Positions 26,660 to 41,466 of a DNA stretch of 64,000 bases are shown one piece after another. The stretch's first letter is position 1. Each line of letters begins with the position of its first letter. Location: assembly GCA_030696045.1 (NCBI GenBank), contig JAUYNO010000004.1, positions 1-64,000 of the forward strand, given 5' to 3'. The notes under the pieces are model-generated. The model had not been told where the DNA came from. It saw only the letters and a list, made by a program, of their open reading frames with translations, and did no database searches. Source of the stretch: Stagnimonas sp. Lineage in GTDB: Bacteria > Pseudomonadota > Gammaproteobacteria > Nevskiales > Nevskiaceae. Made by a program: the position numbers and the translations under genes.

Positions 26660-28462
26660 TCAGACTCCCAGCCAGGTTTTACGTCGGGCTGCGACGGCCG
26701 GGTTCAGCTCGGCACCAGCAACTTCCATCAGCGTCAGCGTCCAGGTGTCGGCGGCGGCCGGCTCCGGAATGATCGCGGCGCGCATCAACTCATCGCCGCG
26801 GAACCACAACAATTCGGCGGATAGCTTGGGCCGCAGCGCGTCGACGCGAGCGGAAAGCTGACCGGCGGCCAGCTTCAGGCCGTCGAGCGCCAGCAGCTGA
26901 TCGCCAGCGGCCAGCCCGGCCCGCTGAGCGGCGGAGCCGGCGAGCACATGCGCCACCTTGCCGTCGCTGTTCAGCTTCAATCCGAGCGTCTGTTTTTGCG
27001 GCGTACCGCTGCGGCGCCCACCCTGGTCGCCATCGCCCACCGCCGGGCGCCGCTCGGCGATCACGCCGAATTCGGCCAGGGCCTCGGCCAGTGGCAGTTC
27101 GCCAGTACCGCGCAGGGCCTGGTCGAAGAAATCACGCAGGTCCAGGCCGGACTGCTCGATGGCCACCGCCTCCAGCGCGCCCTCGGGGGCCGGTCGCTCC
27201 TCGCGGCCGTAGCGGCACCAGAGGGTACGAAGCACGTCGTCCAGGCTGATCTCCGAATCGCGGCGCAGGCGGAGATCCAAGCATAGGGCGACCAGGGCGC
27301 CTTTCACGTAGTAATTCGTGCTGGCATTCGGACTGTTGTCGTCCGGCTGGTAGTACTTGATCCAGGCCTCGAAGCTGGCATCGGCGAGGCTGTGCACCTG
27401 GCGGGCCGGCGTGCGCTCCAGGCGGGTGGCGGCCTCGGCGACGAGATCGAGATAGGACGGCGCGTCGATCAGCCCGGCGCGCAGCAGGAAGAGGTCGTCG
27501 TAGTAGCTGGTGACACCCTCGTAGTGCCAGAGGTCGCGGGTGTAGGCCGGGCCGGACAGATCGCTGTCGGCGAAGGCGGCCGGGGTGATGCGCTTGACGT
27601 TCCAGAGATGGAAGTACTCGTGGCTGGCCAGCCCGAGGAAGGTCCGGTATTCCTTGCTCAGGCTGCTGTCGCCCGGGCGCGGCAGGTCGTTGCGGGCGCA
27701 GACCAAGGCGGTGGACTCGCGGTGCTCCAGGCCGCCGTAGCCGGCGCCGGTGACATTGGTCAGGAACCAGTAGCGCGGCAGCGCCGGCTGGTGGCCGAAC
27801 ATCTCGCGCTGCACCGTGCAGACCTTGGCGAGATCGGCGGCCAGCCGCGCCGCGTCCGGCTCGCAGCGGCCGGACAGGGTCAGGGTATGCGGCACGCCGT
27901 CGGCGACGAAGTCGATACGGCGGAACGCCGCCATCTCCACCGGACTGTCGATCAGGGTTTCGTAGTCGGGCGCGGCGTAGCGACCGAAGCCGGCGGCATC
28001 GACCTGCAGCGGCTGCAGCGCGGTGGCGAGCTGCCAGTCGGCGCAGTCCGGGTCCTCGGGGCGGACGAGTTCCAGCTCGAACCCGGCCTGCTCGTGGCCG
28101 ACCGGGCAATAGACCAGGGACGAGCTGTTGAAGAAGCCGCGCCGGCTGTCCAGCCAGGCCTTGCGCACCGATTCGTCCAGCGCGTGGACGCTGTACTCCA
28201 GCACCACCTCGCCGGCGCCGGGCGGCAGCCGGAACCGGGACTTGTCCAGGCGCTCGATGGCGACCGGCACGCCAGCCCGCGAGGCCGTCAGTCCGCTCAC
28301 ATGCTTGGCGAAGTCCCGCACCAGATAGCTGCCGCGGATCCAGACCGGCAGCCGGAACTCCGGCGCGCCGGCTGCGGCCGCCACCGACAGTCGGATCTGG
28401 AACTGATGGGCGCGCGGATCGGCTCTGACGGCGACCTGCACGGCCGGAAGGGATACGGCCAA
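26660..28462 (-). CDS. M61-family glycyl aminopeptidase-like metalloprotease with PDZ domain
   Basis: About 600 residues: an N-terminal M61 domain, a catalytic thermolysin-like region with the zinc motif HEYFH (H281, E282, H285; LASHEYFHLWNVKR), and a C-terminal PDZ domain (about 490-570, GLKLNSDGKVAHVLAGSAAQ). The prototype has broad aminopeptidase activity for N-terminal Gly and Ala. No signal peptide is visible, so it appears cytoplasmic. The 5' end is unclear: the frame can begin at a TTG (28462) or a GTG (28441), and neither has a good ribosome site. Confidence 0.9.
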   Translation of the reverse strand: MAVSLPAVQVAVRADPRAHQFQIRLSVAAAAGAPEFRLPVWIRGSYLVRDFAKHVSGLTASRAGVPVAIERLDKSRFRLPPGAGEVVLEYSVHALDESVRKAWLDSRRGFFNSSSLVYCPVGHEQAGFELELVRPEDPDCADWQLATALQPLQVDAAGFGRYAAPDYETLIDSPVEMAAFRRIDFVADGVPHTLTLSGRCEPDAARLAADLAKVCTVQREMFGHQPALPRYWFLTNVTGAGYGGLEHRESTALVCARNDLPRPGDSSLSKEYRTFLGLASHEYFHLWNVKRITPAAFADSDLSGPAYTRDLWHYEGVTSYYDDLFLLRAGLIDAPSYLDLVAEAATRLERTPARQVHSLADASFEAWIKYYQPDDNSPNASTNYYVKGALVALCLDLRLRRDSEISLDDVLRTLWCRYGREERPAPEGALEAVAIEQSGLDLRDFFDQALRGTGELPLAEALAEFGVIAERRPAVGDGDQGGRRSGTPQKQTLGLKLNSDGKVAHVLAGSAAQRAGLAAGDQLLALDGLKLAAGQLSARVDALRPKLSAELLWFRGDELMRAAIIPEPAAADTWTLTLMEVAGAELNPAVAARRKTWLGV

Positions 28463-28665
28463 GGAGGGAGGGGGGTGGCGAAATTGCGCGCAAGTCTACT
28501 CCCGCCCCTCCGGGGGGAACAGACGCCCGGCCTCAGGTTGATGACCGGCCTGTAACCAAACCTTCGCCGGCCTTTCACACGCGATTCCTAGAGTCCGCCT
28601 GCTGCGCATTTCCCAGCCCAGAACCCCGTCCCGGCCGCCGGCCAGCGACCCAGCAAGGAACCCCC

Positions 28666-30732
28666 ATGTCCCTCGATAAGCACGACGACACCGAGAATGT
28701 CGACCACGGCGATGTCCTGAATTCCCCCAACTACTTCGGCAATGTCCTGTCGGCCACCATGAACCGGCGCGAAGTCATGCGCGGCGGCCTGTCGGCGGCG
28801 GTCACGGCCGGCTTCGGCGGCAGCCTGCTCAGCGCCTGCGCCAGCGATGGCCCCGGCAGCGGCCCGACGGTAAACGTCAAGAGCATTGCCCGCAGCAAGG
28901 ACGACCGCGTGGTGATCCCGAGCGACTACTCGGCCTATGTGCTGTTCGCCACCGGCGACCTGCTCAACGGCGCCGGCGGCGACAAGACGCTGCAGACGAT
29001 CACCGGCGACGAGATGGCCAGCCGCGCCGGCGATCACCACGACGGCATGTACTTCTACGGCCTGAACGCCGCCGGCGCCCTGGACCGCTCGGCGAATGAC
29101 CGTGGCGTCATCGCCATCAACTTCGAGAACATCAACCAGCAATTCCTGCACGCCGCCGGCCCCACCGCCGACGCCACCACCAAGGCCCGCACCGTGGCCG
29201 ACGAGGTGGTGAAGGAAATCAACGCCCACGGCGTTGGCCTGGTGGAAGTGAAGAAGAACGCCAGCGGCAAGTTCGAGGTGGTCAGCGGCTCCACCATCTC
29301 CCGCCGCGTCACCCCGGAAACCCCGATGCGCCTCGCCGGCCCGGTCGCCGGCAGCCAGTGGGTGAAGACCAAGTTCTCCACCGACGGCAGCCAGAGCCGC
29401 GGCACGCTCAACAACTGCGCCTACGGCTACACGCCCTGGGGCACCTACCTGACCTGCGAAGAGAACTGGGCCGGCTACTTCGACAACGCCAGCACCGCCA
29501 CGCCCGGCATCGAGTACTCACGCTACGGCATCGCCAAGAGCCAGGGCGGCAGCTACCGCTGGGCCACCGCCGGTGCGGACGACCGCTTCGCCCGCTGGCA
29601 GCTCAACACGGTCGGGGCCGACGCCAGCGCCGACTACCGCAACGAGGCCAATACCTTTGGCTGGGTGGTCGAGATCGACCCCGTCAGCGGCGTCGCCGCG
29701 CCGGTCAAGCGCACCACCTTCGGCCGCATGGCCCACGAATGCGCCTACCCCTCGATCATCACCGCCGGCAAGAAGTTCGCGTTCTACCAGGGCGATGACG
29801 CCCGGTTCGAGTACGTCTACAAGTTCGTGCCGAACAAGGTCTGGGATGCGGCCGATGCGGGCGGCGGTTACAGCGCCGGCGACAAGTACCTGAACGACGG
29901 CGTGCTCTATGTCGCCAAGTACAACGCCGACGGCAGCGGCAGCTGGATTCCGCTGGTCGCCGGCACCGGCGCGCTGACCGCCGCCAACGGCTTTGCCGAT
30001 CAGGCCGAGGTGCTGGTGAAGACCCGCGCCGCCGCCGACGCGGTAGGAGCGACCAAGATGGACCGGCCGGAATGGTGCTCGGTAGATCACGGCAGCGGCG
30101 ACGTTTTCATCACCCTGACCAACAACACCAGCCGCACCGCCGCCCAGGTGGACGCCGCCAATCCACGCGCCAGCAACGCCGCCGGCCACATCCTGCGCAT
30201 GCGGGAAGCCGGCAGCGATCCGGCCGCCACGACGTTCAGCTGGACCATCTTCGTGTTCGGCTCGGCGGCCACCAATGCCAGCAGCAATCTGTCGGAGCTG
30301 ACTGCCGAAAACGACTTCGCGTCGCCGGACGGCATCTACAACGATGCCCGCGGCCTGCTGTGGATCCAGACCGACAACGGCCACACCAACGAGATGGGAC
30401 TGCTCTGCAACAACCAGATGCTGGTCACCATTCCGCCGTCCGATTTCAACACCCGGCCGGTGATCCGGCGCTTCCTGGTCGGCCCCGCGCAGTGCGAGAT
30501 CACCGGCATCGACATGACGCCGGACGGCAAGACCATGTTCGTCAACATCCAGCACCCGGGCGAGGAAACCGCCGTTGCCGACGTCAACGGTACCGACGGC
30601 AATGTCAGCAAGTACGCCAGCGCCTGGCCCTACGACCGCGCCGATGCCACCAAGGCCGGGACCAAGGCCGGCCGGCCGCGTTCGGCGACCCTGGTCATCA
30701 GCAAGAAGGACGGTGGTCAGATCGGCGTCTGA
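28666..30732 (+). CDS. phoX: PhoX-type phosphatase (DUF839), Tat-exported lipoprotein
   Basis: A 688-residue PhoX/DUF839 protein. Residues 33-41 contain the twin-arginine motif NRREVMRGG and are followed by a lipobox LSAC (Cys58), so it is Tat-exported and lipid-anchored. PhoX family enzymes are calcium/iron-dependent phosphomonoesterases. Typical segments here are NNCAYGYTPWGTYLTCEENW and FGRMAHECAYPS. The ATG follows AAGGAACCCCC. A strong terminator follows at 30,751. The last 23 codons and this terminator are duplicated 6.74 kb downstream. The substrate and phosphate regulation are inferred; no clear Pho box was found. Confidence 0.92.
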   Translation: MSLDKHDDTENVDHGDVLNSPNYFGNVLSATMNRREVMRGGLSAAVTAGFGGSLLSACASDGPGSGPTVNVKSIARSKDDRVVIPSDYSAYVLFATGDLLNGAGGDKTLQTITGDEMASRAGDHHDGMYFYGLNAAGALDRSANDRGVIAINFENINQQFLHAAGPTADATTKARTVADEVVKEINAHGVGLVEVKKNASGKFEVVSGSTISRRVTPETPMRLAGPVAGSQWVKTKFSTDGSQSRGTLNNCAYGYTPWGTYLTCEENWAGYFDNASTATPGIEYSRYGIAKSQGGSYRWATAGADDRFARWQLNTVGADASADYRNEANTFGWVVEIDPVSGVAAPVKRTTFGRMAHECAYPSIITAGKKFAFYQGDDARFEYVYKFVPNKVWDAADAGGGYSAGDKYLNDGVLYVAKYNADGSGSWIPLVAGTGALTAANGFADQAEVLVKTRAAADAVGATKMDRPEWCSVDHGSGDVFITLTNNTSRTAAQVDAANPRASNAAGHILRMREAGSDPAATTFSWTIFVFGSAATNASSNLSELTAENDFASPDGIYNDARGLLWIQTDNGHTNEMGLLCNNQMLVTIPPSDFNTRPVIRRFLVGPAQCEITGIDMTPDGKTMFVNIQHPGEETAVADVNGTDGNVSKYASAWPYDRADATKAGTKAGRPRSATLVISKKDGGQIGV

Positions 30733-30800
30733 ATCCGCCCGCTGTGAACGGAGCCCGCCTAGTGCGGGCTCTTTTTTTTGGCCGGCGCGGAGGCGCCAGC
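30662..30800 (+). repeat. Direct repeat, copy 1 (phoX 3' end plus terminator)
   Basis: This 139-bp segment holds the last codons of phoX, its stop, its terminator and about 20 further bases. It matches 37402-37539 at an offset of 6,740. Differences are one substitution (30701 G versus 37441 C), one T in the terminator run (8 versus 9) and a three-base indel near the end. It marks the left boundary of the low-GC island. Bases immediately outside each copy do not match. Confidence 0.95.
30751..30779 (+). terminator. Rho-independent terminator of phoX
   Basis: GAGCCCGC (30751-30758), loop CTAGT, GCGGGCTC (30764-30771), then eight T. It has the canonical strong stem with a T run and ends phoX transcription before the island. 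Confidence 0.95.
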
Positions 30801-30802
30801 CC

Positions 30803-30835
30803 ATGAAAAAGAACTACATCGTTAAGTTCGAGTGA
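30803..30835 (+). pseudogene. Possible vestige of an IS630-type transposase start
   Basis: Directly after repeat copy 1 an ATG opens a ten-codon frame, MKKNYIVKFE, ended by TGA. The run KxYIVK resembles the first residues of some IS630-family transposases (MxKxYIVxLT). It has no ribosome site and no downstream continuation could be traced in any frame, so this is only a hint of a destroyed element at the left boundary. Confidence 0.25.
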
Positions 30836-30992
30836 TGTGCCGAAGTTGGCCCTCACAGATCGGAAGAATTCCGACCCCACCTTGCGTGGCTGGATTGGTC
30901 GTCATCTCGTCGTTTGTTTGGAGCGAAGGGGTGGTAGTTCCTTGTCTCTGCGGCAAGAGCGATAGGAAGCGGGTGGCACCAATGTGGACGAC

Positions 30993-32486
30993 TCATTCTG
31001 ATGTGCGCTTGGGGCGCGGGGCTGTCGACCTCGCCGTTTGAGTGAATTCAAGGATCTGGAATCCGGCAGTGTTTCCGGCGATCCAGATATGGCCAAGTTC
31101 GGGGCGATAGCGGACATAAGTTGGGACCGAGTCCCAAAGTAAGCCGTTGGATGTGATGCCTTGGGTGCCGGGCGCCAACAGCCTCGTGGCCGCGATAGGC
31201 TTGGGGTGCCAGTAAGCAATTTCTCTGGGGTTCGTGGGATCTCGTATATCCCAGACGCGCAAACCTGCGCCGAAGCTGGAAATGAAAAGTGTCGTGGCAT
31301 TCTTCGGATCGTCCACCCCGGAGTAGTGGGTGGAATAAGGCACTAAGTCCAACTGTGTCAGCGAACAGTTCTCGGATTTCTGAACCTCCAAGGTGATATC
31401 GCTAACCTTGACCGGGTGGAGCTCATCGGTGATATCGATGATGCGACCATGTGCCCACGGGCAAGCGTAGAAGGGTACTACCTCGTCACTTGAGTAGATG
31501 TACTTGCGTTTTCCTTGACGGAACATGCGCGTGGTGTGAGACGCACCATCTGATGCTTCGTACTCCCCCTCGCTCATCTTTGTCCACAGCAGAGAGCTGA
31601 CTTCTCTCATCTGCGGATCTTGCTTACGTCGCTGGAAGTCCGAGACGTCAAAGATCACAAGGCCGGTCGGATCACCCTGCTTCTCTTGACGGTGCGCGAC
31701 GAAGAGTCTGTTGCCGTCGTCGCTCACACCGCAATCATGATTCGCCGGATTGAATGTGTGCAAAATCTTGGGATTCTCCAGATCGCTCAGATCTACCACT
31801 GCGTCTCCGACGCCGCCAGATTTTCCCGAGGTGGCATATGCCGTCATCCCGTCGTCGCTTATGCATAGCGCATGTCCGGCGTAGCCCGGCAACGTAACTG
31901 ACGCCTTCAATATTGGAAGTCGGCAGTCAGAAGCGTCATAGACGTCCATAACTCCGCCGGTGACCAACGTTGCGACGATGATTTTTCGTGCTTCGTTGCC
32001 CTGGATCGACTCATGCGGCGCCAGCATCGCCGGACTTTGGAGAATGCTGACGAGTTCCGGCGCTTCTGGGTTCGAAGCATCGATCACGGCCATCCCGTTC
32101 AGTGGTTGCCTGACGGGAAGCCCGGAAGGATCGCTGGAGATTCCGGTGACCTGCGCCGCGGAGGTCGTTGTGACATATGCGCAATCCCCTACCCAGGCAA
32201 GAGCGAAGTTTGCGCCCCGTTGCTGGATGCTGTTCTCGCCCACAAGGCGCAGCCCTTTGCGGTGCCCTTCGCGCGACTCTCCGCTCAGCTGATCTGCAAG
32301 CGGTATTTGCCCTTGCAGGCCGGTTTCCAGAAGGTCATCAGGTAACGGCAAGGGTGGAATGACGTTAGTGCCCACCTCGGCGGGAGATTGCGAGTTGCCA
32401 CAGCCCAGGATTGCCAGGGAAAGCGAAACGACAACCAATGGCCGGAGAACCTGCGCGAACATGACCAATACGACGTTGCAGGACAT
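30993..32486 (-). CDS. LVIVD-repeat beta-propeller lipoprotein
   Basis: A 497-residue lipoprotein: signal peptide with lipobox LAILGC (Cys29), then beta-propeller blades of the LVIVD type, seen as repeated hydrophobic-strand units such as GMAVIDASNPEAPELVSIL, AVVDLSDLENPKILHTF and RVWDIRDPTNPREIAYW. Such propellers bind partners or surfaces and usually lack catalysis. The ATG at 32486 was chosen because AGGA lies ten bases upstream; another ATG at 32462 would also give a plausible signal peptide. It follows the esterase gene by ten bases and is last of the three-lipoprotein operon. Confidence 0.85.
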   Translation of the reverse strand: MSCNVVLVMFAQVLRPLVVVSLSLAILGCGNSQSPAEVGTNVIPPLPLPDDLLETGLQGQIPLADQLSGESREGHRKGLRLVGENSIQQRGANFALAWVGDCAYVTTTSAAQVTGISSDPSGLPVRQPLNGMAVIDASNPEAPELVSILQSPAMLAPHESIQGNEARKIIVATLVTGGVMDVYDASDCRLPILKASVTLPGYAGHALCISDDGMTAYATSGKSGGVGDAVVDLSDLENPKILHTFNPANHDCGVSDDGNRLFVAHRQEKQGDPTGLVIFDVSDFQRRKQDPQMREVSSLLWTKMSEGEYEASDGASHTTRMFRQGKRKYIYSSDEVVPFYACPWAHGRIIDITDELHPVKVSDITLEVQKSENCSLTQLDLVPYSTHYSGVDDPKNATTLFISSFGAGLRVWDIRDPTNPREIAYWHPKPIAATRLLAPGTQGITSNGLLWDSVPTYVRYRPELGHIWIAGNTAGFQILEFTQTARSTAPRPKRTSE

Positions 32487-32496
32487 GTCGTCAGTC

Positions 32497-33663
32497 CTAT
32501 TCAAAAGCCGCAGAGCGGCAGGGGATCGCCGCGCCTGATTTCTTCGTATAGTTCTTGAAGAAATCCCAGGACATGCGAGTGCCCATGGGTAGAGGGTCAA
32601 CAACAGGAGCACCGAGGGAATCCTCAGTGCGTCCTGGCCAACCATGCTCCTGCCCATGAATGCGTACGTGCCGGGCGATGAGGCAACCATCCGCGCTGCG
32701 AAAGTCCTGACGTTCGAACGACGCACCTCCGGCATCGAGTCCTGACTCTACCGTGGTGGGTGTCAATGGAAACGGGCCACTCGCCGCACCGGTTACAACG
32801 AGATTGTTGGTCATCAACCACTGCTGGATGGCATTGACGCCGTTCTGGGGATACACCGTGGTGTCCTGGTCGCCGTGCATCGCCAGGACTGGAACCACCC
32901 GGGAATTTTCACCCATCGCCGCGTGGGCAAGCTCCGCGCGATTAGCGACTGGGACCAGCTGCGGCCCGACGGGCTGCAGGGCATCGAGCAACGTCGATGC
33001 ATAAGGGCCACCAGCTATGATCGCAATGGCGGCAAACAGCTCGGGATGGGTAGCACCTAAAATGCTGGTCATGAATCCTCCGGAGGAAGAGCCGACCAGA
33101 TACACCCGGCTTGGATCCACGGACCACCTGTCCATCACCGCACGCGTGAGTCCGGCAACCCCATCCGGGTCGCCGCCGGTCCTCTGCCAATCCAGCGGTT
33201 CATAGAAGCGCCAGCAGCTGAGAGGATGCGTAGTGTTTGCGGCTCCATCGTAATCGGCGTAAATCACGATGAATTCCTCGCGATCGGCCATGACGTTGTA
33301 CTGGGTAATCGAAAGCTGTTCCTCCGCCGTCCTGTTACAGCCGTGCAAATTGACGACGAGCGGCATCGGCGTCTCCCGGCGGTAGGACTTTGGAACGTGC
33401 ACCAAGGCCCGGTAACTTCCGAAATTATTGACGTAGGTGACCGAGGTATCTTCTGCTTCACCGCTACCGCCCGGAAGCGATGAGGATGAGTCACCACACC
33501 CAGCAGGTAGCACTGCTGCAACAGCAGACAGCACGGCATAGCCGCAGAAACGAGCGAAGCGCAAAAAGAGCCGTAGCTTCTTCTCGCCAAGCATTGAACG
33601 TCTATGCGTAAGCGCGGCTTCTGCGGTGCGGATCTTTGTACCAAACTCGCAATAGATGCTCAC
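32497..33663 (-). CDS. PHB-depolymerase/LpqC-type esterase lipoprotein
   Basis: A 388-residue alpha/beta hydrolase: oxyanion motif NLHGCNRTAEE, nucleophile elbow VGSSSGGF, Asp in HGDQDTTVYP and His in HGQEHGWPG. The lipobox LPAGC is preceded by a hydrophobic stretch. GTG at 33663 has AGAAGG upstream within the preceding gene, but it places about 40 residues before the hydrophobic core. ATG at 33594 gives a normal 32-residue lipoprotein signal and may be the true start. The family cleaves polyesters or feruloyl-type esters; the substrate is unknown. It is the middle gene of three, two bases after the propeller gene. Confidence 0.83.
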   Translation of the reverse strand: MSIYCEFGTKIRTAEAALTHRRSMLGEKKLRLFLRFARFCGYAVLSAVAAVLPAGCGDSSSSLPGGSGEAEDTSVTYVNNFGSYRALVHVPKSYRRETPMPLVVNLHGCNRTAEEQLSITQYNVMADREEFIVIYADYDGAANTTHPLSCWRFYEPLDWQRTGGDPDGVAGLTRAVMDRWSVDPSRVYLVGSSSGGFMTSILGATHPELFAAIAIIAGGPYASTLLDALQPVGPQLVPVANRAELAHAAMGENSRVVPVLAMHGDQDTTVYPQNGVNAIQQWLMTNNLVVTGAASGPFPLTPTTVESGLDAGGASFERQDFRSADGCLIARHVRIHGQEHGWPGRTEDSLGAPVVDPLPMGTRMSWDFFKNYTKKSGAAIPCRSAAFE

Positions 33664-33665
33664 GG

Positions 33666-35312
33666 TTAACAGCCTTCTGGACCGATCTGAAGGCTTTCAC
33701 TCCGTTCACCCAGCTGCGACTGCACGTGGCCACAACTTTCCTGTCTGTTCCAATCAATTGATATCAGCAGGGATCCGGCCTGCTCTCCGGAGACGGTGAT
33801 GTCCGCTGTCTGGCTCGAGCGCTGAACGGAACCGGCGAATCCACCAGCCAACTGCTCGGACCCGTTCAGGATCAGCCCCTCGTCCGTCTGATAGTTCAGG
33901 TAGTCGACGCGAAAGGAGCCAAGCAGCACATTGCCCAAGAAGGTCAGTATGGCTTGCCCGCCAGCAGGGCCGCTGACAATGTGAACGCCGGTGTTCAACG
34001 GTGGCACGTACGTCGCAAGCTTTGGCGCCCAAGCGAGATCGGGTGCTTGGCACGAGACTGTTTCAGGGTCGGTGCAAGCAGGTGTACTTGGTGCAATGCC
34101 CTTCAACTTCACGACGACGAGTCGAGTAGTCGCACCGCCGTCGGGTTTGAAGCGCTCGTAGTAGGCGATTCGTGAGCCACTGGGGTCCAGCGCTGCAGGT
34201 TGACGCGCATCCCAGTCGCCAAGGTCATTGTTGACCTGGATGCCATCGCGGCCGGCTAACTCGTCCTCATCGCTGCTGATCCAGACCTCCATCAGGGTAT
34301 TGCGCTGCTCCTCGGAGCCCAGCTTCCACCCGACAAAAGCCAGCGCTTGCGCAAATCCGTAGTAGGGAGCCGTCGGAATCAGTGCGGTGGCTCTAAGTAC
34401 ATTGTGCCGTCCGCGCGCGCTGCCAACGATGAAGCGGGTCGAGTTCGGAAAGTACTGCAGGTCCTCCTCGTACTCGAGGTTGTAGGTGACTTGGCGAACC
34501 TTGCCTGTCTGCAGATCCAGTTCGAAGTCATCAAGCCCAAGGCCGGCCGCGCGATTCGCAGAAAATATTAGATGGTTGGCGTCACGAAACGACTTTGCCT
34601 CACAGAAAGCGCCAGCGAAGCGGAAGTCTTCATCCGTCATTGGGATCAGCGGAACCGGGTTGAGTACCCTGCCGTTTTGCACTTCGTACCCCGTTCCGGT
34701 ACGGGCCAGCTCTCCCATGATCATCCAGAATCCGAACGGGTGAACTTTGGTCCATGCAATGTGCTTGTTGTCCGGAGAAAGTCGCGGCTCACGATCCTGC
34801 AGTCCCGTTGGCGTCTCCACGCCGTCGAGCTTGAAGAAACCTGCATCAGTACATTGAGCAAGTGAAGGCGAGCATTCGCCGATGTAGAACGCGCGTGTGG
34901 ACTGGTCTCGCTCCGCTGTCTCGCCGGAGGTGATGGACTCCGAGAGAAAACGTTTGCCGTCGGCAAAGGGGAAGACTTTTTCAGGACTGAATTCGGCGTG
35001 CCCGGGCTTGTCGCAGGTCACGCAGACAACGTCCTTGCCATCCGGACGCAAAAGGACCACCTGGCGTCCTGCCTGACCTTCAACCTTGGCCGAACAAAGA
35101 AGCTGCTGGCCGGCGGCAGTCCAGCGGCAGGTTGTGGTGTCGCTTATGGCGGCAGGAAACGGCACCACAGAGCGCTCAAAAGAGACGTCCGACAAATCGG
35201 CCTCCCCAGTGACCACGGGCGGCGCAGAATCACCCCAGCAGCCTGACAGCAAAGCGAGTAGCGCGCATGCCGAATAGCGCGGCAACAGCCGGCGACCAAT
35301 GCAAACGAACAT
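33666..35312 (-). CDS. PD40/TolB-like beta-propeller lipoprotein
   Basis: A 548-residue lipoprotein: signal peptide with lipobox LLSGC (Cys25), then repeated WD40-like beta-propeller (PD40) motifs such as REPRLSPDNKHIAWT and QPAALDPSGSRIAYYE, as in TolB and dipeptidyl-peptidase propellers. No hydrolase domain follows. Several cysteine pairs suggest an oxidising location. The ATG has a strong ribosome site GGAGG. It is first of three lipoprotein genes on the minus strand, with its promoter in the 103-bp divergent region shared with the QsdR-type gene. Confidence 0.8.
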   Translation of the reverse strand: MFVCIGRRLLPRYSACALLALLSGCWGDSAPPVVTGEADLSDVSFERSVVPFPAAISDTTTCRWTAAGQQLLCSAKVEGQAGRQVVLLRPDGKDVVCVTCDKPGHAEFSPEKVFPFADGKRFLSESITSGETAERDQSTRAFYIGECSPSLAQCTDAGFFKLDGVETPTGLQDREPRLSPDNKHIAWTKVHPFGFWMIMGELARTGTGYEVQNGRVLNPVPLIPMTDEDFRFAGAFCEAKSFRDANHLIFSANRAAGLGLDDFELDLQTGKVRQVTYNLEYEEDLQYFPNSTRFIVGSARGRHNVLRATALIPTAPYYGFAQALAFVGWKLGSEEQRNTLMEVWISSDEDELAGRDGIQVNNDLGDWDARQPAALDPSGSRIAYYERFKPDGGATTRLVVVKLKGIAPSTPACTDPETVSCQAPDLAWAPKLATYVPPLNTGVHIVSGPAGGQAILTFLGNVLLGSFRVDYLNYQTDEGLILNGSEQLAGGFAGSVQRSSQTADITVSGEQAGSLLISIDWNRQESCGHVQSQLGERSESLQIGPEGC

Positions 35313-35338
35313 GCATCCTCCAGATATCGGTTTTAGTT

Positions 35339-35394
35339 ATGAGTCACATTTTCATAGTAACTCATGATAGAGTTGCATTCAATAAATGACTCAT
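35339..35394. promoter_or_regulatory. Candidate operator with two TGASTCA palindromes
   Basis: TGAGTCA (35340-35346) and TGACTCA (35387-35393) are the same near-palindrome on opposite strands, with centres 47 bp apart. A further ACTCAT (35360-35365) lies between them and forms an inverted pair with ATGAGT (35339-35344). All are in the AT-rich 103-bp gap between the divergent lipoprotein operon and the QsdR-type gene, where an autoregulating TetR-type repressor would bind. The assignment rests on position and symmetry only. Confidence 0.5.
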
Positions 35395-35415
35395 CACGGC
35401 CGAGGTGATCGCTAA

Positions 35416-36102
35416 GTGGCTGACTCGACAATAAAAAAAACCCTTCTGTCCCAGGAACTGGCGCGTCTGCGCAAGGATTTCAGCGACGCGCCGGGAAAAG
35501 GGAGGGCTACCCCGCTGGACGCCTTCAACGTAGCCGCCCGCGACTGGATCGACGGGAAGAGGATTGATGTTGGCCGCATTGCGGATGAGCTTGGCGTGGG
35601 CCGTGCAACGGTCTTCCGTTGGGTGGGCAGTCGTGAGCAACTGATTGGAGAAGTGATCTGGTCGCTGTGCATCGTGCTCTGGAGGGATTCGGTCAAGCAC
35701 GCGAAAGGCACTGGCGCCGACTACGTCGCTGATCTGAGCCATCGCGTCATGGACGGCATCCTGGCAGCAGATCCGCTTCGGAGGTTCCTAGAGCAAGACC
35801 CTGAATTTGCGCTGCGGATCCTCACTTCAAAATCCAGCATCGTTCAGGCGCGGATTGTTGAAGAGACAGCAAAGGTTCTGCGTGAACTTGAAGCAGCTGG
35901 CCACATAAAACCAGCCGTGGATGTCGATAGCTTGGCGTATTTGCTGGTCCGCGTCGTCGAGTCGTTTACGTACAGCGATCAGATCACTGGTCGCCAGCCG
36001 AACATTGAGATCGCGCGTGAAGCCATTCGAATTCTCGTCGCCGCAGAACCTCGCTCGGGAGCGGAAAAGAAAATCCAAGCGCTCGATGGAAACTTCACCT
36101 GA
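35416..36102 (+). CDS. QsdR/TetR-type transcriptional regulator
   Basis: A 228-residue regulator with an N-terminal HTH (IDVGRIADELGVGRATVFRWV, about 49-69), which resembles TetR-type helices, and an all-alpha C-terminal ligand domain with the REQLIGEVIW and ILTSKSSIVQARIVEE segments seen in QsdR-family proteins. QsdR of Rhodococcus represses a lactone-degradation operon and responds to lactone products. The ligand here is unknown. Start GTG at 35416 follows GAGGTGA at a spacing of seven. It is divergent from the lipoprotein operon and upstream of the desaturase. Confidence 0.8.
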   Translation: MADSTIKKTLLSQELARLRKDFSDAPGKGRATPLDAFNVAARDWIDGKRIDVGRIADELGVGRATVFRWVGSREQLIGEVIWSLCIVLWRDSVKHAKGTGADYVADLSHRVMDGILAADPLRRFLEQDPEFALRILTSKSSIVQARIVEETAKVLRELEAAGHIKPAVDVDSLAYLLVRVVESFTYSDQITGRQPNIEIAREAIRILVAAEPRSGAEKKIQALDGNFT

Positions 36103-36249
36103 GCGAAGCTTCGACCTCCGATATTCCGGGTGTCCGCAGCATCTTTACGCTCCCGACTATCGTCAGCATAGCCGGCTATCTGTCACCTGCAATTAGGTCT
36201 GGCCCATCGCGATCTAAAAGTTGATTGCGTCGCATCGAAGGATGCGGCA

Positions 36250-37362
36250 GTGCTTTTTACAAATCACAGAACAATGGCGGACACAATGTCAAATATCTAT
36301 TTTCAAAAGGTCGTCGCCACGATGACCGACGAAGAGAAAATCAACCACGTCAGAACCAACATGCAACTGGCAGGTGATTCTCTGCGAAGCCGTCACCCTT
36401 GGCTGCGGCATCAGGACGCAATCGGCGCATCGATCATGACTCTCTCCGTTATCGGAATGATCGCCAGCGCCGTGCTGTTTTACGTCGGGTGGATTCCATG
36501 GTGGGTATGCACCCCGGCAATTGCTCTGTTCGCTTCGTTTGTTCATGAGTTGGAGCACGACCTGATCCACTTCATGTACTTCCGAAAGACTCCGCGCATC
36601 AATTCAGCAATGCTTCTAATCGGCTGGCTCGTTCGCCCAAGTACTCTGAATCCTTTGGTCCGACGTCGGTTGCACATGCATCATCACAAACACTCTGGAA
36701 CAGAGACCGACCTGGAAGAACGCGGCATCACCAACGGTGTTCCGTGGGGTATAAGTCGCCTCTTGATGACCGGGGACAATCTGCTTTCGGTGTATATGCG
36801 TCCATGGACAACGCTTCGAATCACTGCGGACTTCGTCCGAAGTCAGAAAGCCAGCTCACCAGCAGAATATCGCGCCATTGGGCGCGAGGTTCGGATGGGA
36901 TACTTTCCAATAGCTGTTATCTACTATACGGCTTGGCATGGCTGGATCGCCTTCCATTTGGTTGACGTAGTTGCTGCGGCTATTGGCCATCCACTTCAAA
37001 TCTCATCCTCAGTACAGGGCATAGTTCGCGCGCTCGATTTCGCCGCAGTCGTGCTGATGTTGCCAAGTTTTTTGAGGACATTTTGCCTGCATTTCATTAG
37101 TTCGAACATGCACTACTACGGGGACGTTGAAGACGAAAACCCCCTACAGCAATGCCAGGTTCTAAATGCCTGGTGGACCCTGCCATTCCAGTTGTTCTGC
37201 TTTAACTTTGGGGGCACCCATGCCATCCATCATTTCCTGGTAAAGGAGCCGTTCTACGTTAGGCAATGGACAGCGCCAACCGCCCACAAGGTGCTTCGTG
37301 AGGTTGGCGTCAGGTTCAACGACGTAGGTACGTTCCGGCGGGCAAATCGGTACGCCATCTAA
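36250..37362 (+). CDS. Membrane fatty-acid desaturase-like protein
   Basis: A 370-residue membrane di-iron protein with the three His boxes of the desaturase/hydroxylase superfamily: HELEH (99-103), HMHHH (142-146) and HAIHH (about 329-333), plus four or more transmembrane segments. It may desaturate or hydroxylate a lipid acyl chain or related hydrophobic compound. The GTG at 36250 was chosen because GAAGGA lies seven bases upstream; ATG codons at 36274 and 36286 are alternatives. It is the last gene of the island, 147 bp after the regulator. Confidence 0.87.
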   Translation: MLFTNHRTMADTMSNIYFQKVVATMTDEEKINHVRTNMQLAGDSLRSRHPWLRHQDAIGASIMTLSVIGMIASAVLFYVGWIPWWVCTPAIALFASFVHELEHDLIHFMYFRKTPRINSAMLLIGWLVRPSTLNPLVRRRLHMHHHKHSGTETDLEERGITNGVPWGISRLLMTGDNLLSVYMRPWTTLRITADFVRSQKASSPAEYRAIGREVRMGYFPIAVIYYTAWHGWIAFHLVDVVAAAIGHPLQISSSVQGIVRALDFAAVVLMLPSFLRTFCLHFISSNMHYYGDVEDENPLQQCQVLNAWWTLPFQLFCFNFGGTHAIHHFLVKEPFYVRQWTAPTAHKVLREVGVRFNDVGTFRRANRYAI

Positions 37363-37401
37363 ACGCCTTTGTATGAGCCGGAGTATTCGGCGTGGTAACC
37401 G

Positions 37402-37539
37402 CCAAGGCCGGCCGGCCGCGTTCGGCGACCCTGGTCATCACCAAGAAGGACGGTGGTCAGATCGGCGTCTGAATCCGCCCGCTGTGAACGGAGCCCGCCT
37501 AGTGCGGGCTCTTTTTTTTTGGCCGGCGCGGCGCCAGCG
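37402..37539 (+). repeat. Direct repeat, copy 2 (phoX 3'-end remnant plus terminator)
   Basis: A 138-bp copy of 30662-30800. It encodes a start-less tail of PhoX (KAGRPRSATLVITKKDGG, then QIGV and a stop at 37470-37472), with Ser changed to Thr, followed by the same terminator with nine T instead of eight (37491-37520). It marks the right boundary of the island and lies next to the convergent TonB receptor gene. It is not a functional gene by itself. Confidence 0.95.
37491..37520 (+). terminator. Duplicated phoX-type terminator
   Basis: GAGCCCGC, loop CTAGT, GCGGGCTC and nine T, identical in stem to the terminator at 30751. It would stop plus-strand transcription from the desaturase gene. 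Confidence 0.93.
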
Positions 37540-37545
37540 CAGTCC

Positions 37546-37577
37546 AAAAAAAGGGCCGCGACTACCGGTCGCGGCCC
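37546..37577 (-). terminator. Rho-independent terminator of the TonB receptor gene
   Basis: On the minus strand a GGGCCGCGAC stem with a five-base loop (37553-37577) is followed by seven T (37546-37552 read as A on the plus strand). It lies 23 bp after the receptor stop codon. Confidence 0.93.
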
Positions 37578-37600
37578 GAGTTTTACTTCCCAAGGAAGTC

Positions 37601-39736
37601 CTAGAACGCGGCCTCCAGCGTCAGGCTGACACCGCGGCCCCGCGCGTCGATGCCGGAGGCGTGCTCGCGATAGCTCTTGTCGAGCAGGTTCTCGCCCATC
37701 AGCTGCAGGCGGAGGTTCTCGCCGACGCTCCAGCGCCCGGCAAGATTCAGCACGGCGAAGCCGGCAGTGCCACCCTCGGCAATGCGGTTGTCAGCCCGGT
37801 CGGCGCTGTCCAGGCGGTGCTGGCTGTCGTTGAACCAGAGGCTGGGCTCAAGCTCGACCTTGGCCAGCGGCTGCCAGGCGAGGGCCAGCAGGCCGTTCAG
37901 CGGCGGCACCCGGTTGCCCGGCTCGGTGAGACCGCCGTTCTTCTGCTCGGCCCAGGTGTAGTTGAGCGTGGCGCGGGCCAGCAGCTTCGGCAGCAGGCGG
38001 TAGCGCAGCGCGCCCTCGAAGCCGTAGTAAGTCGCCTCGGCGATGTTCTGGTTCTGGGCGCAACCGTCGGCCTCGGTGCAGCCCTGCTCGCCGTTCGGCA
38101 CGGCGGGGTTGATGAGGGTGATGCGGTCCTCGTACCTGGCATAGAACAGCGTGGCCTCGCCGGCCAGCGAGCCGCCGCGGAACTTCAGTCCGGTATCGGC
38201 CGACAGCAGGCTCTCGGGCTTGAGGCCGGTGTTGGCAACCACCACCCGGCCGCCGGCACGATCCCCGACCTGGGCGAGGTCGTTGATGTTGGGCGCGCGG
38301 TAGCCGCGGCCGAGATTGCTGGCCCAGGCGAGATTCGGGGTGATGGCGTAGCGCAGGCCCAGCTGGGCGCTGTAGTCGGTGTTGTCGATCTTGCCGGCGA
38401 CGGCGCGGTCGGACTCCGGCGCAGCCGGCAGCTCGGTCGAGGTCTGGTTGACGCGACCACCGACATCCAGCAGCCAGTCCGGCGCGAACCGCCAGGCATC
38501 CGACAGGTAGACGCCGAAGTTGTCGGAGCGAGCGCCGTTCGGGAAGCGGCTCTTGAAGCCGGTGCTCGGCGAGTTCGGGTTGAACGGCCCGCCGGCATCG
38601 CTGCGGTACTTGGCGCTCTTCACCGCGTCGCGGTACAGCTCGATGCCATAACTCAGCTGCTGCGCGCCGCCTAGGGCGCTGCGGGCGGCAAGGGTGAAGC
38701 CGTCCAGCGTCGAGCGGTTCTTCTCGCGCTCCTGGCGGGTGAGATTGCGCAGCAGGTCGTAGCGATCATCGTCGATCACCTGGCGACCCAGGTGCGCCTC
38801 CAGACTGTCGATGAAGCCCAGCGGGGCGGTGTGGCGCCAGCGCAGGTGATAGAACTCGCGGCTGTTGAAATACACCGACTGGGCGCGCGCCGGGTTGGAG
38901 CCGGTGATGGGCTTGGAACCCGGCACCATCTCGTTGTAGCGGAAGAAGCCGTCGGGCACATCGAAGTACTGCAGCGACAGCATCAGCTCGTCGCTGGCGG
39001 TCGGCGCCCACAGGCTCTTCAGATCATAGGCGCGGGAGGTGTACTCACCAGGGCCCACCGTGTCACCGAAGCGGATATTGCCCTGCCCGTCCGCCGACTG
39101 ACCCTGGTCGCCGCCGATCTGGCGGTTGCCGTAGCTCGCCGTGGTGTAGCCGCCGCTGACCGAGAGCCGGTCGTTGCCGACCGCGTGGCTGACCCGGCCG
39201 ATCTTGGCGAGATCGGCACTGCCGTAGTGCAGCTTCGCCTCGGTGCGGTAGCCGACCTCGCTGCCCTCGAAGCGCGCCTCCGGCGTGCGGATCTGGATCA
39301 CGCCGCCCATGGCGTCCGGGCCGTACAGGGTGGCGTAGGGGCCGCGCAGCACTTCCAGCTGCTCGATGTTCCAGGGATCGACCAGGGCGATGTACTGGCT
39401 GGGCGCGGTGCGGAAGAAGGCGTTGTTGAGGCGGAAGCCATCGACCAGGTGCAGCACCTCGGCACCCTTCAGGCCGCGAACGATGGCCATGCCCTGGCCG
39501 GGGCCGGTCTGCTGGAAGTAGACGCCGGCCTCGCCGCGCAGCAGCTCGGCCATCACCTGCGGGCTCTTCTTGTCGATGGCCTCGGCGTCGAGCACGGTGA
39601 GCGGCTGCGGCAGCTCGAAGCCGGGCTCGGGCAGACGGCCAGCGGTGACCTGGACCGGTTCCAGGATCACCGGATCGGCGAACGCAGGGCTGGCGAGCAT
39701 CGCGGCGGCGATGGCCAGGAGACTGGGCTTGAACAT
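37601..39736 (-). CDS. TonB-dependent outer-membrane receptor
   Basis: A 711-residue receptor: signal peptide about 1-20 (ending AFA), a TonB-box-like segment VILEPVQVTAG, a plug domain (about 40-160: LPQPLTVLDAEAIDKKSP, MAIVRGLKGAEV, VLRGPYATLYGPDAMGGV), a 22-strand barrel and a C-terminal aromatic residue (SLTLEAAF). Length fits a single-substrate receptor; the substrate is not deducible. ATG at 39736 starts the signal peptide and follows CAGGGA. It is 74 bp downstream of the PHP lipoprotein gene on the same strand. No Fur box was seen. Confidence 0.93.
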   Translation of the reverse strand: MFKPSLLAIAAAMLASPAFADPVILEPVQVTAGRLPEPGFELPQPLTVLDAEAIDKKSPQVMAELLRGEAGVYFQQTGPGQGMAIVRGLKGAEVLHLVDGFRLNNAFFRTAPSQYIALVDPWNIEQLEVLRGPYATLYGPDAMGGVIQIRTPEARFEGSEVGYRTEAKLHYGSADLAKIGRVSHAVGNDRLSVSGGYTTASYGNRQIGGDQGQSADGQGNIRFGDTVGPGEYTSRAYDLKSLWAPTASDELMLSLQYFDVPDGFFRYNEMVPGSKPITGSNPARAQSVYFNSREFYHLRWRHTAPLGFIDSLEAHLGRQVIDDDRYDLLRNLTRQEREKNRSTLDGFTLAARSALGGAQQLSYGIELYRDAVKSAKYRSDAGGPFNPNSPSTGFKSRFPNGARSDNFGVYLSDAWRFAPDWLLDVGGRVNQTSTELPAAPESDRAVAGKIDNTDYSAQLGLRYAITPNLAWASNLGRGYRAPNINDLAQVGDRAGGRVVVANTGLKPESLLSADTGLKFRGGSLAGEATLFYARYEDRITLINPAVPNGEQGCTEADGCAQNQNIAEATYYGFEGALRYRLLPKLLARATLNYTWAEQKNGGLTEPGNRVPPLNGLLALAWQPLAKVELEPSLWFNDSQHRLDSADRADNRIAEGGTAGFAVLNLAGRWSVGENLRLQLMGENLLDKSYREHASGIDARGRGVSLTLEAAF

Positions 39737-39810
39737 GGGAATCCCTGAATGAGTTGATGACGGCTTCAGGTCGGACGTTAGCGAGTCCGATGTAAAGACT
39801 TGGTCAATTC

Positions 39811-41466
39811 TTAGGAACCTGCCGACGCCGGCTTCAGGAAAATCGGATTGCCAATCACGGTGCGGGTCTGGGCGTCGCGCAGCTCGATCCGCCAGAACGT
39901 GCCGAGCGGGCCTTCGCTGACCGGCAGCCGGGCGGCCGCCTGGGTGTGCACATAGGGATCGGTCGGCACCGGCAGGCTCAGCACCGGCAGGCCGTTGGCG
40001 TAGTAGCTCAGCAACTGGCCGACGCCGCCGCTGACCGTGGTGGTCAGCGTCGCGGTCTCGCCCTCGGCCAGCACCAGGCTGTCGCCATAGATGCCCTGCT
40101 GCCCGCCCGGCCCGCTGGCTTCGAACAACACCTGCGGCGAGTTGGCGATGCCGCGCGCACGGATATAGGCATGGCCGGCCCGGATCGCCGCGCTCAGCGC
40201 CGGCCGCGACAGGTTCTGCGCGTGCACGGCGGTGGCGCTGGAGCCATAGCCCTTGCGGCTGCGCTGGTCCTCGGCGTCGACGCCCTTGCTGTCGGAACCG
40301 CTGACGGCGGTGATCTTGTAGCCCTGGGCCAGCAGGCCCTCCCATTTCTGGATGGCGGTGGCGACGAAGGGGTTCTCGATCGAACCGGCCGGCAGCGGAA
40401 TGCCGAGGTCGTCGGCAGTGGCGATCATCGGCCCGTTCACCAGCTCGATGGTGTCGACCTGGGACCAGTCCACGGCGTCGTCGAGCTCGAAGTAGCAACC
40501 CCGGCAGAAATTGCTGAACAGCGGCGGCGGAAAGGTGGTCGGGTGGTTGACGCCGAACAGCGCGCCGTCGGCCTTGCTCAGGCGCTGGATCTCGGCGGCG
40601 CTGACGTCCTCGAAACCGTGCCGGTATTCGAGCACCGAGGGCGTTTCGCCGAAGGCCATCATGTGACCGTGGTAGGTGATGATCTCGCGCCCCGGCCAGA
40701 TCAGCAGGTCCGGGTGCTGGCGCTGCACCGCGCCGAGCGTGTGCCAGTGCTGGCCGGTGACGTACTCGGTGACCATCAGGAAATCCAGCTGCGCGGCGCG
40801 CGCCTGGGCGATGAAGTCGGGCCAGTCCGGCGCGTTCGGGTTGGAATGGTAGGCGTGCATGTGGAAGTCGCCGTGATACCAGCCGGCGCCGAAGCGCGCG
40901 ACATGGCCGCGATCCACCGGGTCCTCGGCCGGCGGCGCGCCGGCTGCCGCCGCCTTGCACTCGACCCGGACGCGATAGTCCGCGCCATTGGGCGCGACGG
41001 CGGCGATGCCGAGGTCGGCGAACCAGAGGCCGGGCTCGATGCGGCCGGGCACGAAGCCGCGATCCGCGCCATCGGCCTGCACGAAGATCGGCGCCTGCTC
41101 GTTGTCGCTGCGACCCTGGCGCGAACCGCCCCAGCCGCGGAAGCCGGCGGCACTGCGGTAGCCGCGCTGGTCCCAGAGCCCGAGGTCGAAGGTGGTGCTG
41201 GTCAGCGGTGTGCTGGGCGGGTTGCCCGGCTTGTCACTCCAGTCATAGCTCAGCTCGACCCGGCCGGTACCCGGCGCCACCGCGAACGGCAGCATGCGGT
41301 AGCTCTTGGCGTCGCCGCCGCCGGCGCTGCCGGTAAACTCCAGCGGCGCGGCGCCGGGTGCGCAGGCCGGCGCCGACGGCAGGCCGCCACCGGTCGGTGG
41401 CGTGCTGGAATCGCCGCAGGCGCTCAACAGCGACAGCAGCAGGATCGGCAGCAAGGAGGCTTTCAT
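39811..41466 (-). CDS. PHP-domain (CehA/McbA-like) metallo-phosphoesterase lipoprotein
   Basis: A 551-residue lipoprotein: lipobox LLSAC (Cys17), then an N-terminal beta domain (about 30-180), a PHP-type catalytic domain beginning WYHGDFHMHAYHS (about 205-217) and continuing with ITYHGHMMAFG and GVNHPTTFPP, and a C-terminal beta region. The clustered His residues are typical trinuclear-metal ligands. Family members hydrolyse phosphoesters or, in CehA, carbamates, so the substrate is uncertain. It precedes the TonB receptor gene on the same strand and is likely coexpressed. Confidence 0.85.
   Translation of the reverse strand: MKASLLPILLLSLLSACGDSSTPPTGGGLPSAPACAPGAAPLEFTGSAGGGDAKSYRMLPFAVAPGTGRVELSYDWSDKPGNPPSTPLTSTTFDLGLWDQRGYRSAAGFRGWGGSRQGRSDNEQAPIFVQADGADRGFVPGRIEPGLWFADLGIAAVAPNGADYRVRVECKAAAAGAPPAEDPVDRGHVARFGAGWYHGDFHMHAYHSNPNAPDWPDFIAQARAAQLDFLMVTEYVTGQHWHTLGAVQRQHPDLLIWPGREIITYHGHMMAFGETPSVLEYRHGFEDVSAAEIQRLSKADGALFGVNHPTTFPPPLFSNFCRGCYFELDDAVDWSQVDTIELVNGPMIATADDLGIPLPAGSIENPFVATAIQKWEGLLAQGYKITAVSGSDSKGVDAEDQRSRKGYGSSATAVHAQNLSRPALSAAIRAGHAYIRARGIANSPQVLFEASGPGGQQGIYGDSLVLAEGETATLTTTVSGGVGQLLSYYANGLPVLSLPVPTDPYVHTQAAARLPVSEGPLGTFWRIELRDAQTRTVIGNPIFLKPASAGS

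Follow-up and report, generated by a model that had tools for sequence, protein, structure and literature searches.

A low-GC, recombinase-less island between direct repeats of the phoX tail in Stagnimonas sp.

We analyzed a 64,000-nt stretch (the window) of contig JAUYNO010000004.1 from Stagnimonas sp. (assembly GCA_030696045.1, 4.28 Mb in 104 contigs; genome G000 in our set), in which a compositionally foreign segment with five genes separates phoX, encoding an alkaline phosphatase, from its convergent neighbor, a TonB-dependent receptor gene. The segment (positions 30804-37401, 6,598 bp; the island) is flanked by two near-identical copies of the phoX 3' end, encodes no recognizable recombinase, and is missing from the same site in congeners. 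The reading we favor, with moderate confidence, is that this 6.6-kb foreign segment was inserted into the phoX-TonB gap in this lineage independently of an integrase.

Direct repeats, composition and the empty site

The two copies of the phoX tail span positions 30662-30803 and 37402-37541 (142 and 140 bp) and are offset by 6,740 bp. Each holds 23 codons from the very end of phoX, followed by its stop and a terminator-like hairpin. A blastn alignment between the copies gives 137/143 identities with 4 gap positions (96% identical; E-value (E) 1e-62). Their first 118 bp align without gaps and with a single difference, at position 40 (AGC in the left copy, ACC in the right), and the indels are T8/T9 and a 3-bp AGG. 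The left copy completes phoX and the right copy runs on into native sequence, so that the direct repeats rebuild the target gene. When the 142-bp sequence was used as a query against the entire 4.28-Mb assembly, it recovered both copies, plus a single match of 26 bp to the terminator part. We also scanned about 699 kb (ten contigs, about 16% of the genome) for direct repeats within one contig (minimum 40 bp and 90% identity). The phoX pair was the sole one spaced 1-20 kb, with four further pairs lying 56, 105, 130 and 29,247 bp apart.

The guanine-plus-cytosine (GC) content of the island is 0.566, compared to 0.696 in the remaining window, and drops to 0.52-0.61 in 1-kb windows. GC at third codon positions (GC3) is 0.598-0.663 in the five island genes, versus 0.905-0.936 in four neighboring genes (phoX, the TonB receptor gene and the two that follow). 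When the 198 1-kb windows of the contig are ranked by 3-mer deviation, the 13 island windows take ranks 1-7, 9-13 and 18. An earlier note on this DNA had described the last 23 codons of phoX and its terminator as duplicated 6,740 bp apart, with one substitution and two small indels, around five genes of lower G+C and different codon use. Our alignment, GC and GC3 profiles and gene calls bear this out, and all five genes are intact. Of the repeat bounds it gave (30662-30800 and 37402-37539), the starts stand and the ends move to 30803 and 37541.

Our comparison set comprised four congeners (G001, G002, G003 and G004), and in all four phoX and the TonB receptor gene are convergent neighbors. The stop-to-stop distance between the two genes is 125 bp in G004, 118 bp in G001 and 107 bp in G002, and 6,868 bp in the Stagnimonas sp. 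genome. The second, partial phoX stop of this genome lies 128 bp from the TonB stop, meaning that the gap without the insert is near the size seen in the empty congeners. Since the phoX proteins of G001 and G002 are just 47-48% identical over the tblastn segment, their orthology rests mainly on the shared neighbor. In G003, the gap is 1,777 bp long and holds an unrelated, GC-rich (0.75) methyltransferase gene (PF13649; L037:11686-13302, minus strand, contig C1); we searched this phoX-TonB stretch for a duplicated phoX tail and found none. The phoX coding tail is present once in each of the four congeners. Given the methyltransferase gene in G003, the phoX-TonB gap looks like a permissive insertion spot in the genus.

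Overall, the island is absent at the phoX-TonB site in four congeners, and the insertion is real and lineage-specific. Judged by its atypical composition and by the empty site of close relatives, the segment is a horizontally acquired genomic island. The earlier note's claim that the module was acquired is thereby upheld, through the check it had proposed (an empty site in relatives, found in three congeners) and the foreign composition. The pattern it had named as pointing to ancestry, with the same genes and both repeats in all relatives and normal composition, is not what we see.

Island genes, recombinase searches and relatives

The features of the island and its flanks are as follows:
28666-30732, plus strand: phoX alkaline phosphatase, intact, 688 amino acids (PF05787, E 2.7e-133); last 23 codons in the left repeat
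30662-30803, plus strand: left direct repeat, with the last 23 codons and stop of phoX and the terminator (stem 30750-30772)
30993-32735, minus strand: LVIVD-repeat or choice-of-anchor-B-like lipoprotein (PF08309, 19.4 bits, cut-off 20.2; TIGR04312, 22.6 bits, cut-off 100; both below cut-off)
32497-33663, minus strand: extracellular type-1 short-chain polyhydroxyalkanoate (PHA) depolymerase-like esterase, a lipoprotein (NF050058, 219 bits, cut-off 150; PF10503, E 9.4e-21)
33666-35312, minus strand: probable TolB-like beta-propeller lipoprotein (propeller-type motifs and lipobox LLSGCWGD, assigned by eye)
35416-36102, plus strand: TetR-family regulator (PF18598 TetR_C_36, E 2.1e-34)
36250-37362, plus strand: fatty acid desaturase (PF00487, E 1.1e-17)
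37402-37541, plus strand: right direct repeat, with the partial phoX tail and terminator (stem 37490-37512), now 3' of the desaturase gene
37553-37577, minus strand: terminator-like hairpin of the TonB receptor gene, scored on the plus strand too
37601-39766, minus strand: TonB-dependent receptor, native convergent neighbor of phoX

The insert spares phoX with its terminator as well as the hairpin on the TonB side, and places a terminator copy behind the desaturase gene. The LVIVD-type protein carries the lipobox LAILGCGN, also read by eye, and its true start is probably near 32486; that of the esterase is probably near 33594. The TolB-like protein has no match in Pfam, NCBIfam or PDB sequences, and a single-sequence model reached a mean predicted local distance difference test score (pLDDT) of 34, from which we draw nothing on its fold. 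From the predicted families we infer a cargo that may hydrolyze lipids or polyesters and desaturate fatty acids under the control of a divergent TetR regulator.

Searches of the five island proteins against family libraries matched no integrase, other recombinase or transposase family, and the one PHROG match among them is to an esterase/lipase family. Because the largest stretch of the island outside the five genes is 189 bp, there is no room for a hidden recombinase gene between or beside them. The earlier note had likewise remarked that no integrase or insertion sequence (IS) gene is visible. With no integrase gene inside 30804-37401, the island in its present form is not an integrase-borne element; with long direct repeats and no recombinase gene, it comes closest to the recombinase-less islands of the H47 or unconventional circularizable structure (UCS) kind. 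It is not an IS or transposon, as the five proteins include no transposase and the repeats are 140 bp long, and a comparison of its first and last 100 bp for terminal inverted repeats gave no exact inverted match of at least 8 bp. PADLOC returned 0 matches for the five proteins, and the segment is not a defense island. As for a transfer RNA (tRNA) target, there is no tRNA gene in the window or in four other stretches, and Rfam has no match at 28000-40000.

The tyrosine-recombinase family PF00589 has five matches in the genome, all on other contigs. One, on C95 (L046:877-2085), is a 402-aa tyrosine integrase with an arm-binding domain (PF13356); its gene lies 168 bp past one for tRNA-Ser and is followed by low-GC DNA, and this region is likely a conventional tRNA-borne island. 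Separately, contig C7 has a mean GC of 0.63, many low-GC windows, a 566-aa tyrosine recombinase (PF12482, PF00589) and two copies of an 86-bp direct repeat that lie 29 kb apart; it is possibly a large mobile element.

We searched for the TolB-like gene in 60 relatives (E 0.001), a class sample of 368 other genomes (E 1e-30) and a phylum sample of 397 genomes (two-row profile, E 1e-20), samples that overlap and that each cover part of their group. It was unmatched in 60/60, 368/368 and 397/397 of these genomes, respectively. Relatives of the protein occur in three Bacteroidota metagenome-assembled genomes (weak, 22-24%, from a scan with two poor peptide patterns that carries little weight) and on two plasmids (27-28%). 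A paralog with 37% identity is found on contig C38 of the same genome. The C38 cluster (L038:3643-9294) encodes a propeller-type lipoprotein, an esterase (PF00756) and a 708-aa protein that matches nothing in Pfam, and a TetR gene (PF00440) lies on the opposite strand. The cluster has near-host GC and no flanking repeats, and suggests a recurring propeller-esterase-regulator module. Searches around the paralogous loci on C38 (whole) and C51 (15,000 of 19,525 bases) found no flanking direct repeats of at least 40 bp at 85% identity.

Esterase relatives (E 1e-30) are present in 8 of 99 other genomes, with identities of up to 54% in g8, a genus of the same family. Three of the four g8 genomes searched carry paired PHA-depolymerase-like genes 2.5-2.7 kb apart (G011 C8, G022 C12 and G034 C33; L075, L074 and L073). 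Desaturase relatives (E 1e-60) occur in 4 of 273 other genomes, reaching 61-62% identity in two, and 52% relatives lie on four Acinetobacter records. At E 1e-25, none of 184 other genomes of the class matched the TetR gene, and LVIVD-like relatives on plasmids are at 26-32%. When the island DNA was compared with plasmids and phages, only 230 bp of the desaturase gene matched; in four annotated plasmid regions, the neighboring genes fail to reproduce the island cluster. The five-gene cluster appeared in none of the stretches inspected around single-gene matches, and the single-gene searches of our samples revealed neither a second genome with the island nor a donor that we could name.

Route of insertion and alternative explanations

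The repeats themselves are informative as to whose phoX tail was duplicated. The 72-nt coding tails of the two copies show 2 differences, one of them just outside the repeat, and each copy differs at 9 positions from G003 and at 13 from G004, the nearest two congeners. Both copies are of this species, since they differ mutually at 1 of 118 bp compared to 9 and 13 of 72 for the congeners. The codon at position 40 is ACC (Thr) in the four congeners and the right copy, and AGC (Ser) in the left copy. Both repeats thus clearly appear to derive from the species' own phoX tail and, as near-identical copies of it, were either conspecific on arrival or duplicated at insertion. Unless gene conversion evened the copies, this likeness argues against an old phoX tail brought in by a broad-host element. 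It favors insertion that needed no recombinase of the insert's own, whether by duplicative capture or by a single crossover of a conspecific circle.

In the model we favor, a foreign 6.6-kb segment lacking a recombinase of its own would have entered the gap, short and permissive, where phoX and the TonB receptor gene converge, in one of two ways. A fragment could have been captured with duplication of about 140 bp of the target, through an illegitimate or template-switch join 140 bp back. Alternatively, a small circle could have entered by one crossover, having picked up a conspecific phoX tail beforehand. We infer this recombination step from its end product, which fits either a Campbell-type insertion or duplicative capture. 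Selection against damage can explain where the insert ends lie. As for an encoded integrase, the present island has none, although its ancestor may have had one.

Several points weigh against this model. A repeat ending just past the terminator would also be expected of a gene-restoring attachment site, and gene conversion between the copies could have erased an older divergence. Neither a donor nor a circular form was found. Finally, the species is represented by a single genome, a 104-contig draft without reads for checking.

The strongest alternative, which we nonetheless consider unlikely, is site-specific integration: a tyrosine recombinase would have used the phoX 3' end and terminator, the element would have brought the replacement tail, and the integrase would since have been lost or have acted in trans. 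Repeats that cover exactly the last codons, stop and terminator and rebuild phoX are what this model predicts, and the five PF00589 matches on other contigs, one of which (C95) adjoins a tRNA-Ser gene, also speak for it. Against it, none of the five is on the island's contig, the island holds neither an integrase gene nor space for one, and both tails are near-identical and of this species. We also looked for the tail elsewhere. Among 61 genomes, coding-tail matches of the right copy sit at phoX genes with two exceptions, the remainder being matches to the terminator part only, and a 26-base degenerate phoX-tail pattern had no exact match in viral contigs; both results speak against an element that carries this tail. 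The two exceptions, which lie away from any detected phoX and lend the model some support, are short and weak (G019:C32:35618-35646, 28 bp; G025:C24:12294-12339, 46 bp, E 2.7e-4) and may represent chance or remnant tails. The earlier note had proposed an acquired module that arrived with a phoX 3' end of its own, through site-specific integration or a single crossover of a circular molecule. Acquisition is borne out by the empty sites; a tail of the module's own and site-specific integration are not, given the missing recombinase and the near-identical, own-species tails.

A bolder and quite improbable extension is that the island is a live recombinase-less mobile unit, whose 142-bp host-gene tail would allow it to circularize and reinsert at conspecific phoX terminators via host recombination, possibly independently of RecA. 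If so, any cargo that gained a host gene tail would become a species-specific mobile element without an integrase.

A very improbable alternative is that the ancestor of the genus already had the island and that recombination across the repeats later removed it from the relatives. A deletion of this type would produce a clean site such as G004 has. However, the composition of the island is far from native, its TolB-like gene is unmatched in all three genome samples, and, barring gene conversion, the repeats are too alike for an insertion that predates the genus. An assembly artifact, with a foreign contig misjoined at the phoX end of a 104-contig draft that comes without reads, is just as hard to credit, as one substitution and two indels distinguish the copies, and each is joined to different unique sequence.

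Comparison with known systems

Elements such as e14 and phage 21, which target icd, integrate at the 3' end of a protein-coding gene, restore that gene and encode an integrase. The phoX island resembles them in its duplicated gene tail and whole target gene, but encodes no integrase. More generally, protein-coding genes often harbor integrase-borne islands, which in many cases restore the gene that they enter, according to the relevant parts of PMC12884075. In homology-facilitated illegitimate recombination, as outlined in sections of PMC3240628, one homologous and one illegitimate join import foreign DNA, generally deleting about as much host DNA as is inserted. Unlike the outcome described there, the phoX site shows no visible loss and has 140 bp duplicated; this process is a possible route. 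We set aside the merodiploids formed by transformation (Johnston et al., PMC3784515), whose duplications span about 100-900 kb. In one strain of Nitrosococcus oceani, PhoX-family phosphatase genes are interrupted by a three-gene cluster, as noted in a passage of PMC7285500. Our literature search found no paper uniting phoX, an attachment site, an integrase and alkaline phosphatase.

The island offers a clean case of foreign genes placed in a chromosome without a visible recombinase and with neither neighbor broken. Moreover, having the species' own gene tail as the repeat separates elements that carry an attachment tail from insertions that duplicate the host's tail. If the repeats still recombine, they would offer a simple model of how islands can move without an integrase.

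Among known kinds, the nearest match is an island that lacks a recombinase and has long direct repeats at its ends. Like the UCSs described in passages of PMC7843796, the phoX island is a segment between long direct repeats, and related mobile elements without a recombinase gene are mentioned in parts of PMC5426353. Those elements have repeats of several hundred bp by that account, whereas the phoX repeats are shorter, and the island has no resistance gene. The closest precedent is the microcin H47 island of E. coli. As described in the pertinent sections of PMC3191183 and PMC5426353, its 146/148-bp repeats, 77% identical with at most 20 bp of perfect match, surround 12.6 kb without a recombinase gene. 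Its excision was detected by polymerase chain reaction (PCR) without RecA; clones lacking the island were not recovered, and a PCR artifact was not fully excluded by the authors (PMC3191183; PMC5426353). From these same accounts (PMC3191183; PMC5426353), the two islands share a small size, the lack of a recombinase gene, imperfect direct repeats (146/148 versus 142/140 bp) and empty sites in other strains. They differ in that the phoX repeats are 96% rather than 77% identical, with one mismatch in 118 bp, and form the tail of a functional gene.

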